From Acidobacteriota bacterium (GTDB lineage Bacteria > Acidobacteriota > Thermoanaerobaculia > Gp7-AA8), in assembly GCA_021325515.1 (NCBI GenBank), contig JAJPHC010000028.1, positions 1-64,000 on the forward strand: a stretch of DNA of 64,000 bases, in the 5' to 3' direction. This document shows positions 1 through 4,666 of this stretch, piece after piece. The notes below the pieces were generated by a model. That model ran no database searches and had not been told where the DNA came from. It saw nothing but the letters and a program-made list of their open reading frames with translations. The position numbers and the translations under genes were made by a program. Each line of letters opens with the position of its first letter. Within the stretch, counting starts at the first letter, position 1.

Positions 1-87
1 CTCCCGATAGTTCTCTTATGCGTTGTTCGGCATCGCCGCGGTGCTTGTGACGCTGGCGGCGAGGAGGAGTCCCTATTGACTCGCTCA
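1..87. other. left edge of window, probable tail of a preceding gene cassette
   Basis: No ORF can be supported here. The stretch lies directly upstream of an attC site, so it is probably the 3' part of a cassette whose body is outside the window. One frame reads a short hydrophobic tail (FGIAAVLVTLAARRSPY) ending at the TGA at 77-79, but a TAG at 8-10 interrupts that frame, so I do not call a gene. Confidence 0.3.
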
Positions 88-204
88 ACCTAAGAGTACG
101 GTGCACCCGACGCCGTGCCGTTCGCTGCCGTGTTCGGCGTATCATTGTCAAATAGCGCTCTTGCCGCGTGAAGCACGGCGCGGGTGAGCGTCAGGACGTT
201 GGGC
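88..204 (+). other. integron attC site 1
   Basis: The site has an R''-like box ACCTAAG (88-94), an imperfect long inverted repeat (GACGCCGTGC near 109, GCACGGCGCG near 174) and a canonical R' core GTTGGGC (198-204). The inner arm and variable loop (GTTCGCTGCC, TTCGGCGTATCATT) closely resemble those of the attC at 3771-3885, so the two belong to one attC family. The R'' box deviates at its last base from the RYYYAAC consensus. Integron integrases recombine the folded bottom strand of such sites at the R' core. Confidence 0.8.
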
Positions 205-274
205 GGACCGAGGACCACCGGTTGCTGTGCACGAGCCTACTCGCATAGACTTCCACCAAGCAAAGGAGATGAGT

Positions 275-712
275 ATGAGTCGTGGATATCCCTTTGTCGC
301 ACTTGTTCTAGCGAGCTTTGTGAGTTGTTCAACGGCATCCCACGTTATTGTTGGAAAGACGCGCCCACCGATAGCCGCCACACAGGTCAAGATCTATTTG
401 CATCCACCGGCGAACTACGAAGAGATCGCGATTCTCGAAGCGACAAGCGAAGGTTCACCGGCCATCACGGCCCAGGGCAAGACCAACAAGGTCATAGAGC
501 GACTGAAGAACGATGCAGCGCAACTTGGCGCCAATGGCATACTCCTGCAAGCTGTTGGTAATGAGACTGGCGGAGCTGTTGCGACAGGTCTTGGCTCGAG
601 CGTTACGACAGGGTCGTCGACCATCAGTTCCGGGACAATTGTAATGGCTGGGTCGCGTATAAAGACCGGGAACGCGATCGCAATCTTTGTTCCCGAGCAG
701 CCAGCTCCATAA
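275..712 (+). CDS. integron-cassette lipoprotein-like protein
   Basis: A 145-residue exported protein of unknown function. The N-terminus (MSRGYPFVALVLASFVSCST) is a short signal with a lipobox-like VSC, suggesting a lipoprotein, although Phe at -3 is not ideal. After it comes SHVIVGKTRPPI and QVKIYLHPPANYEEIAIL, a pattern I recognise from a widespread family of small uncharacterised bacterial lipoproteins. A conserved KVIERLKNDAAQLGANGILLQ helix follows, then a Gly/Ser/Thr-rich tail. ATG 275 is chosen over the in-frame ATGs at 227 and 269 because AAGGAG at 263-268 is spaced six bases from it. It is the only ORF of its cassette, between attC sites, and its stop codon lies inside the next attC-like hairpin. 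Low GC compared with the chromosome supports mobility. Function is unknown. Confidence 0.75.
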   Translation: MSRGYPFVALVLASFVSCSTASHVIVGKTRPPIAATQVKIYLHPPANYEEIAILEATSEGSPAITAQGKTNKVIERLKNDAAQLGANGILLQAVGNETGGAVATGLGSSVTTGSSTISSGTIVMAGSRIKTGNAIAIFVPEQPAP

Positions 713-751
713 ACGCCTTCGCGTTCATGGAGTGAGCGGCAAACGTTGGGC
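691..751 (+). other. degenerate integron attC site 2
   Basis: A 12-bp hairpin (CTCCATAAACGC at 705-716, loop CTTC, GCGTTCATGGAG at 721-732, one mismatch) is followed by an L'-like GAGCGGC and a canonical R' core GTTGGGC (745-751). GCCAGCTC before the hairpin could be L'' with one extra base. I see no acceptable R'' box, so this is a short or decayed attC. It separates the lipoprotein and PIN cassettes. Confidence 0.55.
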
Positions 752-760
752 GGCCAGACT

Positions 761-1492
761 GTGTACATCTTATTGGATGCTAACGTCACCGCGGCGTATT
801 ACCTGCCACGATCAACGACGAGCCAGAACATGGCTTCTCGCGCCACGACCCTTTTCGACTCCGTTCGATCAGGAGCCAGTCAGCACTTCTTTTATCTTCC
901 CAACTTCTGCGTTGCCGAAGTCTTCGGCGTCTTCATGAAGTACGCCTTCGGTGCATGGAACAAGCATGTGAAGAAGGCTGGTAAGCCGATCGACAAACGC
1001 GTCTATGGCTCGTTGCGGGCACAATTCGAGAAAGACATTCACAATGGAAAGTTCATCTACCATTACGAGTTGTCGCGTTACCACGTGCTCGCGATCAACC
1101 TCGTGGCACCAGTCGATCATTACTTTCAGGTGTCTCGTATCCGAAAGAAGGGCCAGAAGCCTGTGACACCCATGGGAACGTTCGATCACTTGATCATCGC
1201 CATGGGAATCCATCTCGCTCACATTCATGGTGCGGACAATGTTGCAATCGTCTCCGGCGACCGCCGGCTGACCGACATATTGGCAAAGTGCAAATCTGGT
1301 CTGCCGGCGGCAACGATTCGGAAACTCAAACTGGATCAGGCCGAGGAGATCACGGGGAGGAAGTTTCGGCCAAACCTGTTCCCGAAACACATCAACCTCG
1401 TGACCGCAACCAAGGGCGAGCTGACGACACTCTTCGGCGCATGGCCGCTGCCGGTCGCCAGCGTTCCCAATGTGTATCGCTGGCTCAAGTAA
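761..1492 (+). CDS. PIN-domain-like protein (cassette gene)
   Basis: A 243-residue PIN-like (putative Mg-dependent ribonuclease) protein. Acidic positions typical of the PIN fold are visible: an N-terminal strand YILLDANV, a mid-protein CVAEVFG, then TFDHLIIAMGIHLA and VAIVSGDRRLTDIL near residues 150-170. PIN domains are the toxins of VapBC modules, but they average 130-150 residues and are normally paired with an antitoxin; this one is longer and no antitoxin gene is adjacent. GTG 761 is used as start because the longer frame would begin with a TTG inside the attC core; there is no Shine-Dalgarno, as is common for genes placed right after R'. It could be a solo nuclease rather than a toxin. 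Confidence 0.7.
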   Translation: MYILLDANVTAAYYLPRSTTSQNMASRATTLFDSVRSGASQHFFYLPNFCVAEVFGVFMKYAFGAWNKHVKKAGKPIDKRVYGSLRAQFEKDIHNGKFIYHYELSRYHVLAINLVAPVDHYFQVSRIRKKGQKPVTPMGTFDHLIIAMGIHLAHIHGADNVAIVSGDRRLTDILAKCKSGLPAATIRKLKLDQAEEITGRKFRPNLFPKHINLVTATKGELTTLFGAWPLPVASVPNVYRWLK

Positions 1493-1498
1493 TCGGCC

Positions 1499-1602
1499 GC
1501 CCAACTCTGCGCTGCACCGGACTCCGACCCGCTCGCTGCAGCCTTCCGAGAGCTATACTTCTCGCGTGCGGGTCGGAGCCGGTGAGCGCTGATCCGTTAG
1601 GC
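1499..1602 (+). other. integron attC site 3
   Basis: A textbook attC of 104 bp: R'' GCCCAAC (1499-1505), L'' GCGCTGCA, long complementary arms (CCGGACTCCGACCCGC against GCGGGTCGGAGCCGG), L' TGAGCGC and R' GTTAGGC (1596-1602). R'' and R' are near-perfect complements. It follows the PIN gene stop by six bases, the usual cassette geometry. Confidence 0.92.
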
Positions 1603-1777
1603 CGTCCGTGGATCAGCCGCCACCCGTCCCCGTCGACAACTCCGGCGTCACGCCGTTTGCAGTTCGCTCACGCCGAATCTCTCGTTCCTCGCGGCAAACG
1701 GCGCGCCGCTGGTCCAACCCAGCGGCCGCACAATCGCGGCTTGCGGTATACTCATCTCGAAACGCGAGGTCGTCACC
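1603..1777 (+). other. 5' non-coding part of the protease cassette
   Basis: No ORF. It contains a strong 8-bp hairpin (GCCGCTGG, six-base loop, CCAGCGGC) near 1707-1730 and a -10-like TATACT near 1747, about 25 bases before the protease start, with no clear -35. The segment GTTCGCTCACGCC near 1663 loosely resembles the inner arm of the attC sites, but lacks R boxes. Confidence 0.35.
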
Positions 1778-2881
1778 GTGAAAGCCTTTCTTGCTGCCTT
1801 GGGCATCACCATGGCCGCGTGCGTAACCGCGTTCTGCGCGCCTACCGACGCTCCGATTGAGAGCAAGCTTCCGGCCATAATTGAGATACGAACCAAGACT
1901 CCCGAGGGCGTGTCCTCTGGAACTGGGTTTGTTATCGAGCCTTCCGGGACCGCTGTCACCTGTTTCCACGTTATCAGTCACGCGCAGGAGGTGGCGCTCA
2001 AAACAACATCGGGCGAAACATACGGCGACATACGCGTGCTCGCGTTCGACGTGACACGCGACCTCGCGATCATCAAGTTCGCCGCTTTTGGTTCGCCGAT
2101 AATCCCGCTGGCAGACTCTGACGCCATTCATGTTGGTGATGCGGTGTTTGCCGTCGGGCACCCGAAGGGCCTCGAAAACAGTGTAACCAAGGGAATCGTG
2201 AGCGCCATCCGGACCGTGGACGGCGTCAGAGTTATTCAGACGGACTCCGCCGCATCGCCTGGCAGCTCTGGTGGACCGCTTCTAAACGAGAAGGGCGAGT
2301 GCATCGGAGTGGTCTCGTTCAAGATCTCCGGAGAAGGACTCAATTTCGCCCTCCCTTCAAACTACGTCCGAGGCCTTCTGGGCATGCAGAGCGCGATGAC
2401 TCTCGAGCAGTTCAACGCCGCCGCGAGCAAGAAGACGGCCGACGCATCCATGTTCACTGCCGGCAGCGGCGACACCATTACCGGAAAATGGCGCTCCCTC
2501 GATTCAAACACGATCAAGGTTCTTCGTCAGGATGGTGACTACGTATCAGGTGAGTCCTTCACAAGGGATGAGAAACAATCCCTGGGCAGTTACGACCTCC
2601 GAAAGCAGGCGGACGGCTCTTACGCTGGGCGCATAAAAGGCTCTTGGGCATGCCGCTGGTGGAGCGTCTGGGCTTTTCCATACCCCGACTGGCGCGAAAA
2701 CCAATGCAACACCGAAGACCAAGTCTTCTTTACCAAGGTAGACGCCAACCGTATCGAGGGCTACATTTACGGTCCGAAGGCACCGCCACAAAACGATCGA
2801 AATTTTGCCGCATTCTGCAAGACGTGCGGAGCTACATTTCCGAAGGTCAAGGCCAACTTCGTCTGGGTCCGAGCCGAATGA
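1778..2881 (+). CDS. secreted trypsin-like (S1C/HtrA-type) serine protease
   Basis: A 367-residue protein with a signal peptide (MKAFLAALGITMAACVTAFCAP) and a chymotrypsin-fold protease domain from about residue 30 to 205. The catalytic triad is visible: His in TCFHVIS, Asp in RDLAIIKF and Ser in GSSGGPLL, with the HtrA-like GTGFVI and GEGLNFALPS segments around it. Unlike HtrA/DegP it has no PDZ domain. Instead a C-terminal region of about 150 residues (GDTITGKWRSLDSNTIKVLRQ, many Trp and Cys) may be a substrate or glycan-binding part. GTG 1778 is the start that preserves the signal peptide. The gene lies in an integron cassette. Whether it is a regulator protease or a general exported protease cannot be told. 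Confidence 0.85.
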   Translation: MKAFLAALGITMAACVTAFCAPTDAPIESKLPAIIEIRTKTPEGVSSGTGFVIEPSGTAVTCFHVISHAQEVALKTTSGETYGDIRVLAFDVTRDLAIIKFAAFGSPIIPLADSDAIHVGDAVFAVGHPKGLENSVTKGIVSAIRTVDGVRVIQTDSAASPGSSGGPLLNEKGECIGVVSFKISGEGLNFALPSNYVRGLLGMQSAMTLEQFNAAASKKTADASMFTAGSGDTITGKWRSLDSNTIKVLRQDGDYVSGESFTRDEKQSLGSYDLRKQADGSYAGRIKGSWACRWWSVWAFPYPDWRENQCNTEDQVFFTKVDANRIEGYIYGPKAPPQNDRNFAAFCKTCGATFPKVKANFVWVRAE

Positions 2882-2931
2882 AGCGAGTCGACGAGGGACC
2901 ACGTGCCTCCCTTATCTCGAAAGGACGACCG

Positions 2932-3234
2932 ATGAGACAGTGGCTCGGCGACGCGCCAGATTGGCTTGTCGACCAGTACCGGGCATTAGAACCAGCGGTG
3001 AAGGCGCACGCCGAACAGTTTGCCCGAGCATATTTCGAACAATTCAAGAAGAGCGAGCAACAGCTCGTCCGTGGTCCCGACGCGAATGCATGCTTCGCGG
3101 CATTCACGAAAGACAACACGTTACCCGACTGGGGTGAGGAGAATCGTTTGTATGTGGAGATGGCCGTCCTCGAACTCTATCGGGAATATCAAGACCAAGA
3201 GTTTCATCGCTTGTTGCTGCGTGAGATGCTATGA
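2932..3234 (+). CDS. small cassette protein of unknown function
   Basis: A 100-residue, mostly helical soluble protein (MRQWLGDAPDWLVDQYRALE at the start, LYREYQDQEFHRLLLREML at the end). I recognise no family. ATG 2932 is chosen because AAAGGA lies about eight bases upstream; an alternative ATG at 2878 overlaps the protease stop and would add 18 residues. It shares the protease cassette, since no attC is visible between the two genes, and its stop is 15 bases before the next R''. Two-gene cassettes are less common than single-gene ones, so the two products may work together, but this is inference. Confidence 0.6.
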   Translation: MRQWLGDAPDWLVDQYRALEPAVKAHAEQFARAYFEQFKKSEQQLVRGPDANACFAAFTKDNTLPDWGEENRLYVEMAVLELYREYQDQEFHRLLLREML

Positions 3235-3248
3235 CACGCGCACCGGCG

Positions 3249-3367
3249 GCCTAACTCGGCGTTGCAGCCGACGGGGCGCCGTTCGCTGCCACGTTTCGCG
3301 CAAGTTGCACGTTCATCGCTCTTGCCGTGTGGAGGCGCCCCGCGGCTGAACGCCCGCTCCGTTATGC
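3249..3367 (+). other. integron attC site 4
   Basis: R'' GCCTAAC (3249-3255), L'' CGTTGCAGCCG, inner arm GACGGGGCGCCGTTCGC, opposing arm GGCGCCCCGCGGC, L' TGAACGC and R' GTTATGC (3361-3367). It is 119 bp long. The conserved GTTCGCTGCC and CGCTCTTGCCG blocks are shared with attC site 1. The downstream DUF3024 gene begins 12 bases after R'. Confidence 0.92.
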
Positions 3368-3379
3368 GGCTGAGATCGA

Positions 3380-3721
3380 ATGAACGAACTGCAGAGAATG
3401 CGAGTTGAAAGGACCGTCGCGACGTTCATCGAGCAACGTCGTCCGCCAGCTCACCTTCGTGATCGGGTCGATCTCGCATTTCGGTTCGACGGTCGATACG
3501 TGGAGATCTTCGAGGTCCGACCAAGTTGGAATGAACCGACGGAAAAGATCGAGGAGTCAGTGGCAAGAGCTCGGTACTTGAAGTCTCGTGACGAGTGGCT
3601 CGTTTACTGGAAGAGGGCAGACCTTCGTTGGCACAAGTACCAACCCGCGCCGGCAGTCAACACGGTAGAGGCATTCCTTAAGCTCGTCGATCAAGACGAG
3701 TACTGCTATTTCTTCGGCTAG
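3380..3721 (+). CDS. DUF3024 family protein (cassette gene)
   Basis: A 113-residue protein matching my recollection of the DUF3024 family along its whole length: a first helix ending FIEQRRPPAHLRDRVDLAF, a beta segment YVEIFEVRPSWNEPTEK, a conserved VYWKRADLRWHKYQP, and the terminal EAFLKLVDQDEYCYFFG. The family is uncharacterised and is often found in integron cassettes. Start ATG 3380 is close to the attC R' core with no strong Shine-Dalgarno, as expected for a cassette read from an upstream promoter. No membrane segment or signal is present. Confidence 0.88.
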   Translation: MNELQRMRVERTVATFIEQRRPPAHLRDRVDLAFRFDGRYVEIFEVRPSWNEPTEKIEESVARARYLKSRDEWLVYWKRADLRWHKYQPAPAVNTVEAFLKLVDQDEYCYFFG

Positions 3722-3770
3722 GCTGTCTGAGCGCCGCCGGCTTGTCACCGGACCCGTGGTCGTGGCCGCC

Positions 3771-3885
3771 GCCTAACTCGCCGGTGCAACCGTCGCGCCG
3801 TTCGCTGCCATTCTCGGCGTATCATTCACGCGTATCGTTCCTCCCTCGTCCAAGCACGGCGCGGCTGAGCGTTACGACGTTCGAC
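3771..3885 (+). other. integron attC site 5 (last intact site)
   Basis: R'' GCCTAAC (3771-3777), L'' GGTGCAACCG, inner arm CGTCGCGCCGTTCGC, loop with CGGCGTATCATTC, opposing arm GCACGGCGCGGC, L' TGAGCGTTACGAC and R' GTTCGAC (3879-3885). It is 115 bp. The terminal C of R' deviates from the R' of the other sites, as is usual where the last cassette meets unrelated sequence. Confidence 0.85.
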
Positions 3886-3893
3886 GCTGTGAA

Positions 3894-3955
3894 GGGGAAT
3901 GTCGTCTGCGCTGCACCGGCCTCCGGCCCGATGGACGGCTCGCCGGTCCGCGCAG
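3894..3955 (+). other. attC-like relic at the array boundary
   Basis: TCTGCGCTGCACCGGCCTCCGGCCCG at this position is nearly identical to the L'' and left arm of attC site 3 (TCTGCGCTGCACCGGACTCC...), and GCCGGTCCGCGCAGCG downstream can pair back to it. No R'' or R' core is present. It looks like the eroded end of a lost cassette, placed just before the oppositely oriented chromosomal gene. Confidence 0.4.
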
Positions 3956-3961
3956 CGCGAA

Positions 3962-4666
3962 TCAGTCGCCGGAAACGAACGCGCTCATCTTCCACGCTCC
4001 TTTCGCCTGGCGAAAGCCGGCGCGATAGGCGATCGGGCTGCGAAGATCGGCTGCGCGGATCCAGCCGCTGGCTCCATCCGCGGTGCGGACGTGCCGCCAG
4101 GCCGGGTCCTTCGAGCCGGCGGCAATCAACTCGACGATTGCCCAATCGAGCATTCGCATCACAGGGGCATTCGCCGCAGGACTCCGGCGCAATGGAGCAT
4201 CATTACGAACGACGGCCATGTGCGTGAACGCATCGAGCTTCTCGGGCCAGGCCGAGTAGACGTACGGCGCCCAGAACATCCGTTCCGGACCAACGCCTCG
4301 AAAGGTCCCGCCCAGTGCGATCGCATCGGAAATCTCCTGCCACACGCGCGCGCCTGACTCCTGATCACTCAAGAGTTTCCGGAAGGCATCTCTCCCTCCC
4401 CCAGCTCCGAAGCTCGTCCGGATTGCGGGATCCACCAGCTCGAGAAGTGCATTGGCATCGCGCCGCTTCACGGCCGCACGAAGCTGCCGGCGATAACTCG
4501 CGAACGAAGCATCACGGTCCCCCTCGTCGATAGGGCAGAGTGTCGTCTCATTGGGCATGCAGCGCGAGGCCACGGCGGGCGTCGCGGAAGCAGAGATCGA
4601 AGCAGGAGGAACTTCCCGGCGACAACTCAGCAGAATCGCAATGGAAAGAATCGTGATCGTTCTCAT
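3962..4666 (-). CDS. lipoprotein with SH3-like domain
   Basis: A 234-residue exported protein. The N-terminus MRTITILSIAILLSC has a lipobox (LLSC), so it is probably a lipoprotein. A low-complexity linker is followed by a helical region (SYRRQLRAAVKRRDANALLELVDPAIRTSFG) resembling domains that hold a small pocket near residues 55-100. The C-terminal third (DAPLRRSPAANAPVMRML, WRHVRTADGASGWIRAADLRS) has the pattern of bacterial SH3-like domains that often bind peptidoglycan or stem peptides. It runs against the cassette array and its GC matches the chromosome, so it marks the array's right boundary. The specific function is unknown. Confidence 0.7.
   Translation of the reverse strand: MRTITILSIAILLSCRREVPPASISASATPAVASRCMPNETTLCPIDEGDRDASFASYRRQLRAAVKRRDANALLELVDPAIRTSFGAGGGRDAFRKLLSDQESGARVWQEISDAIALGGTFRGVGPERMFWAPYVYSAWPEKLDAFTHMAVVRNDAPLRRSPAANAPVMRMLDWAIVELIAAGSKDPAWRHVRTADGASGWIRAADLRSPIAYRAGFRQAKGAWKMSAFVSGD

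Follow-up and report, generated by a model that had tools for sequence, protein, structure and literature searches.

A Probable Distal End of a Sedentary Chromosomal Integron Array, Cut by an attC-Targeting Element, in a Draft Acidobacteriota Genome

Introduction

The usual picture of an integron is that of a single integrase with a single attI and a single array. The integrase IntI recombines folded bottom-strand attC sites and inserts the cassettes at attI. Sedentary chromosomal integrons of the Vibrio type share with the genome studied here an IntI of the same family, homogeneous attC sites and chromosomal cassettes mostly without known function. Unlike in the Vibrio type, intI points here at the array, attI lies at its 3′ end, and at least five arrays appear to be present per intact intI. 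Compared with the inverted integrons of the Treponema denticola type (PMC3607928), the present ones occur in another bacterial class and include extra attI copies, and the IntIs of this class form a clade of their own among those compared.

Two further systems are relevant. According to the available text of a study of Xanthomonas (PMC12444791), CALINs in genomes with one intI are groups of attC sites that occupy several places on the chromosome, apart from intI, and are open to IntI in trans. The attC clusters of the present genome similarly lie at multiple loci apart from intI; unlike those CALINs, several arrays here start with a recognisable attI copy, a feature not described in the available text of that study. 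The IS1111-attC insertion sequences land at a fixed point of attC and disrupt it (PMC11187229, PMC11616780), and their ends feature extensions of 7 bp and 3 bp around a repeat of 11–13 bp (PMC11187229). Here, we describe positions 1–3885 of a bacterial contig, which very probably form the far end of an array in a sedentary chromosomal integron, likely served in trans and cut by an attC-targeting element.

General Features of the Cassette Array

The window, i.e., the whole stretch of DNA analysed, comprises 64,000 nucleotides and corresponds to bases 1–64000 of contig C16 in a draft genome of 5.38 Mb and 63 contigs. Base 1 of the window coincides with the start of the contig. A profile search found no integron integrase within the 64 kb window, and none to the right of the array; the integrase is missing from the window as an effect of the assembly, because base 1 is a contig end. 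The GC-content of positions 108–3885 is 57.8%, compared to a mean of 63.3% (sd 1.1, range 60.2–65.6%) for downstream windows of 3.8 kb, in agreement with the original prediction of a GC-content below that of the flank.

A simple motif search, which combined the core R″ (RYYYAAC), the core R′ (GTTRRRY) and arms able to pair, gave attC candidates in the window and on other contigs. A covariance model, R1, was built from 15 candidate sites of the genome, including the four of the window. The features found in and next to the array are as follows:

1–102, strand not assigned: right-hand terminus of a mobile-looking repeat element inserted in an attC, ending in ...CCTATTGACTCGCTCAACCTAAGAGTACGGT, with identical copies on other contigs
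103–204, plus strand: attC site 1, right part only (R1 match 88–204, 112.2 bits)
269–712, plus strand: cassette open frame, 147 aa, with a lipoprotein-like leader (phrog_27267, E 7e-14; weak DUF4156 match, E 0.03)
732–751, plus strand: degenerate right-half attC remnant, GTGAGCGGCAAACGTTGGGC, resembling the L′–R′ halves of native sites
761–1492, plus strand: cassette open frame, 243 aa, PIN-nuclease-like by eye only
1499–1602, plus strand: attC site 3, intact (R1, 100.7 bits)
1778–2881, plus strand: trypsin/HtrA-like serine protease (PF13365, E 1e-31)
2932–3234, plus strand: second open frame of the protease cassette, 100 aa
3249–3367, plus strand: attC site 4 (R1, 105.7 bits)
3380–3721, plus strand: DUF3024 protein (PF11225, E 2e-35; PADLOC defence-candidate family PDC-S43, E 5e-43)
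3771–3885, plus strand: attC site 5, the last, decayed (R1, 91.1 bits)
3906–3930, plus strand: fossil of another attC, left half only, CTGCGCTGCACCGGCCTCCGGCCCG; read by eye, 23 of its 25 positions match the left arm of site 3
3962–4666, minus strand: SH3-domain protein, the first chromosomal gene past the array (PF06347)

Five plausible open frames, all on the plus strand, are separated by attC sites in the same direction, with an attC closing each cassette, which is the arrangement of an integron cassette array. Beyond the array the chromosomal genes start on the opposite strand. The sites are of a species type, with inner-arm types common to several chromosomal contigs, which identifies the array as part of a sedentary chromosomal integron.

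Among the cassette products, family profile searches gave no match for the 243 aa protein (761–1492) or, with PADLOC models included, for the 100 aa protein (2932–3234). The degP_htrA_DO match of the protease was under the cut-off. The PADLOC label on the DUF3024 gene is a candidate listing and not a tested function.

Structure of the attC Sites

An outside check of R1 on other genomes was needed because the four window sites sat in its training set. When applied to arrays that neighbour integrases from other phyla, R1 placed the attC sites all on one strand, and it found further attC sites in related genomes of the same class. The next independent match in the 64 kb window scored 13.9 bits (E 0.16); the only additional match above 14 bits was to the reverse strand of one of the four sites.

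The sites differ in their state of preservation. Site 3 has both cores and pairing arms, and its bottom strand folds strongly (z −5.5); it represents a second inner-arm type, recurring elsewhere in the genome. In site 4, the R′ core GTTATGC has one mismatch to GTTRRRY, and folding is moderate (z −2.2). The combination of both cores and pairing arms is incomplete at sites 1 and 5. Site 1 keeps the R′ core GTTGGGC, has lost R″ to the inserted element and folds weakly (z −1.6). Site 5 has a broken R′ core (GTTCGAC), has lost 3 nt from the left arm and folds no better than shuffled sequences (z +0.76). The remnant at 732–751 was not detected by R1; a short hairpin over 690–751 had a z of −2.6 against shuffles, and the region around the fossil half-site (3898–3960) folded with a z of −2.35. 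The array end is hence worn, since sites 1 and 5 fold poorly and half-sites persist at 732–751 and 3906–3930. An imperfect hairpin at 1630–1745 (z −2.75), between site 3 and the protease gene, is possibly another decayed site.

The original prediction described a cassette array of chromosomal type without an integrase in the window. The array is borne out by the attC matches, and the 64 kb of the window, whose left side is missing from the assembly, hold no integrase. It also counted four convincing sites and one degenerate site, all in one direction. Four matches do lie on the plus strand, but site 1 is cut and site 5 is decayed. The proposal that sites 1, 4 and 5 share inner arms was correct, the common arm being GCCGTTCGCTGCC, and the idea of a species-type attC family as in chromosomal integrons is upheld by the recurrence of the inner-arm types on other contigs. 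A covariance-model scan, suggested then and now carried out, gave the four sites 91–112 bits with the model built from the genome's own sites. The cutting of site 1 by an element, the decay of site 5, the existence of two native attC subtypes and the presence of at least five array tails had been missed.

Integrase, attI Copies and Array Heads

The genome contains one intact integron integrase gene (C31:17384–18361), whose product scored 470.7 bits against TIGR02249 (cut-off 265), and which can be aligned from end to end with VchIntIA (2a3v, E 4e-97), the IntI-specific patch included. Directly 3′ of the intI stop codon lies attI, pointing toward the cassettes; the contig ends 300 bp past the stop, inside the first cassette, and the block between the stop and the contig end terminates in AATCAGCTTAGGACCAAGTT. 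The attI core AATCAGCTTAGGACCNAGTT is present on C31, C3 and C53 with 0 mismatches and on C14 with 3 mismatches, and a variant was found on C24. A control search with the reversed pattern gave zero matches. Five array heads thus carry the attI core, and the intact intI adjoins only one of them. On C3, a decayed piece of intI is located upstream of attI, and the heads on C53, C24 and C14 have a common upstream block, unlike the others, after unrelated chromosomal genes. A block made up of TAGATATCTACGGGTAGATG repeats was observed beside attI, directly after the ends of unrelated genes, on C53 (L055 5822–5922), C24 (L172 about 4110–4190) and C14 (L261 177–265).

On C31 and C14, the same first cassette stands behind two attI copies, and in both the junction falls precisely at G^TT. 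The two contigs are about 98% identical over 105 nt past this point and 35% identical over 60 nt before it, which indicates site-specific insertion at two attI copies. Five array tails were found, on C16 (the window), C2, C34, C54 and C6, and the genome appears to maintain five or more arrays alongside a single intact integrase, a count that assumes one head per tail in a draft assembly. Two small attC clusters with right-half sites, at the start of C24 (L171 1229–2421) and on C52 (L174 3564–4389), lie away from the heads found. A small contig, C63 (1–7118), encodes three tyrosine recombinases, all in the same orientation, possibly a recombinase-trio element.

Since contig C16 starts within the inserted element, the assembly gives no physical link from the window array to an attI or to intI. 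It could be a dead, stranded attC cluster (CALIN) at a locus of its own, never headed by attI and beyond the reach of the integrase. The unfolded last attC with its broken core, the half-site remnants and the cutting of site 1 by the element would all suit such a cluster, as would the two small clusters on C24 and C52 for which no head was found. However, site 3 is well formed and site 4 nearly so, the genome contains both an intact IntI and attI copies that match, and heads and tails are equal in number, at five each; we therefore consider a dead cluster unlikely. Still more doubtful is the suggestion that the array directly continues the C31 integron, with intI just to the left across an assembly gap. 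The genome's attC family fits, and C31 does stop within its first cassette, but all five heads vie for the five tails, nothing links C31 to C16, and no overlap joining C16 to a partner was found among the contig ends tested. A distal array end served in trans remains the preferred reading of the window.

Integrons in Related Genomes

IntI was found in 27 of the 61 genomes searched, own genome counted. In same-class genomes with R1 matches, 11 loci are inverted, with attC on the intI strand past the 3′ end of intI, and 1 is classic. In the tree, the IntIs of this class group together in a single clade (support 99/96), and every array typed in the sister clade is classic. The dispersed-attI layout is also present, in part, in relatives: in two genomes (G004 and G011), a second contig carries an additional attI head, with no intI match on the stretches holding these extra heads, and a third (G009) has a single head in the regions fetched.

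Comparison of gene neighbourhoods in search of an empty site showed the M61 peptidase alone to be common to relatives in the compared regions, with differing neighbours, and no significant attC was found at the M61 peptidase regions compared. None of the C31 neighbour genes queried beside intI are shared with relatives; the sole matches belong to an antisense frame of intI.

The Inserted Element

Positions 1–102 of the window recur identically at the start of C2 and, as far as these contigs reach, at the ends of C6 and C54. Each of the four copies adjoins a different attC body at the same attC position. On C53 and C24, the left end of an attC is intact, including R″, up to CGCT, and is followed by a shared sequence starting ACCTTTAGG. 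The attC break point is constant at the four right junctions and the two left junctions. Read together, the junctions suggest an element bounded by ACC...GGT and lying between CGCT and GCA of attC, in one orientation, in at least four arrays. Both ends probably belong to one element, judging by their position and the shared attC break; as inverted repeats, the two ends resemble each other weakly (p about 0.02). A single cassette present in several copies is a very improbable source of the repeat, since, even if 1–102 always directly precedes an attC body, these bodies differ and lack the R″ core, while duplicates of a single cassette would have their entire attC in common, and two other contigs keep R″ and then show another shared end at the same attC position.

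The body of the element is absent from the assembly. Searches for the end sequences in plasmids, viral contigs, 196 relatives and the fetched loci yielded chance-like short matches outside the genome itself. A group IIC-attC intron is not supported, as neither end seen has a match to an Rfam group II family (domain V). The element resembles IS1111-attC sequences in its repeated occurrence at a fixed insertion point in attC and in the disruption of the sites. No DEDD transposase was seen, the body of the element being unassembled, and the IS110 C-terminal domain PF02371 is absent from the assembly. Unlike in the IS1111-attC group, the ends do not fit the IS1111-attC geometry of subterminal inverted repeats with 7 bp and 3 bp extensions.

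Discussion

The array itself is ordinary; the novelty is the layout of one integrase with many attI copies, together with the attC-targeting element. We propose, with modest confidence, that a single integrase of the inverted type serves five or more separate arrays via dispersed copies of its own attI and that the element, landing at a fixed point of attC, freezes the arrays successively. IntI would act in trans on all arrays; cassettes would be captured at the attI copies and excised as folded bottom-strand attC hairpins. The cassettes of the window would then be old ones at the distal end, a region of attC decay, and their genes would likely be silent or reliant on their own promoters. Landing in the left arm of attC, the element has cut the window array and probably three others, and its insertion would likely lock the preceding cassette in place.

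Were attI able to spread by itself, leaving the integrase behind, a genome could have several independent capture points, and arrays now classed as orphan clusters of attC might still be active. The same cassette behind two attI copies would offer a natural test of whether the integrase acts in trans.
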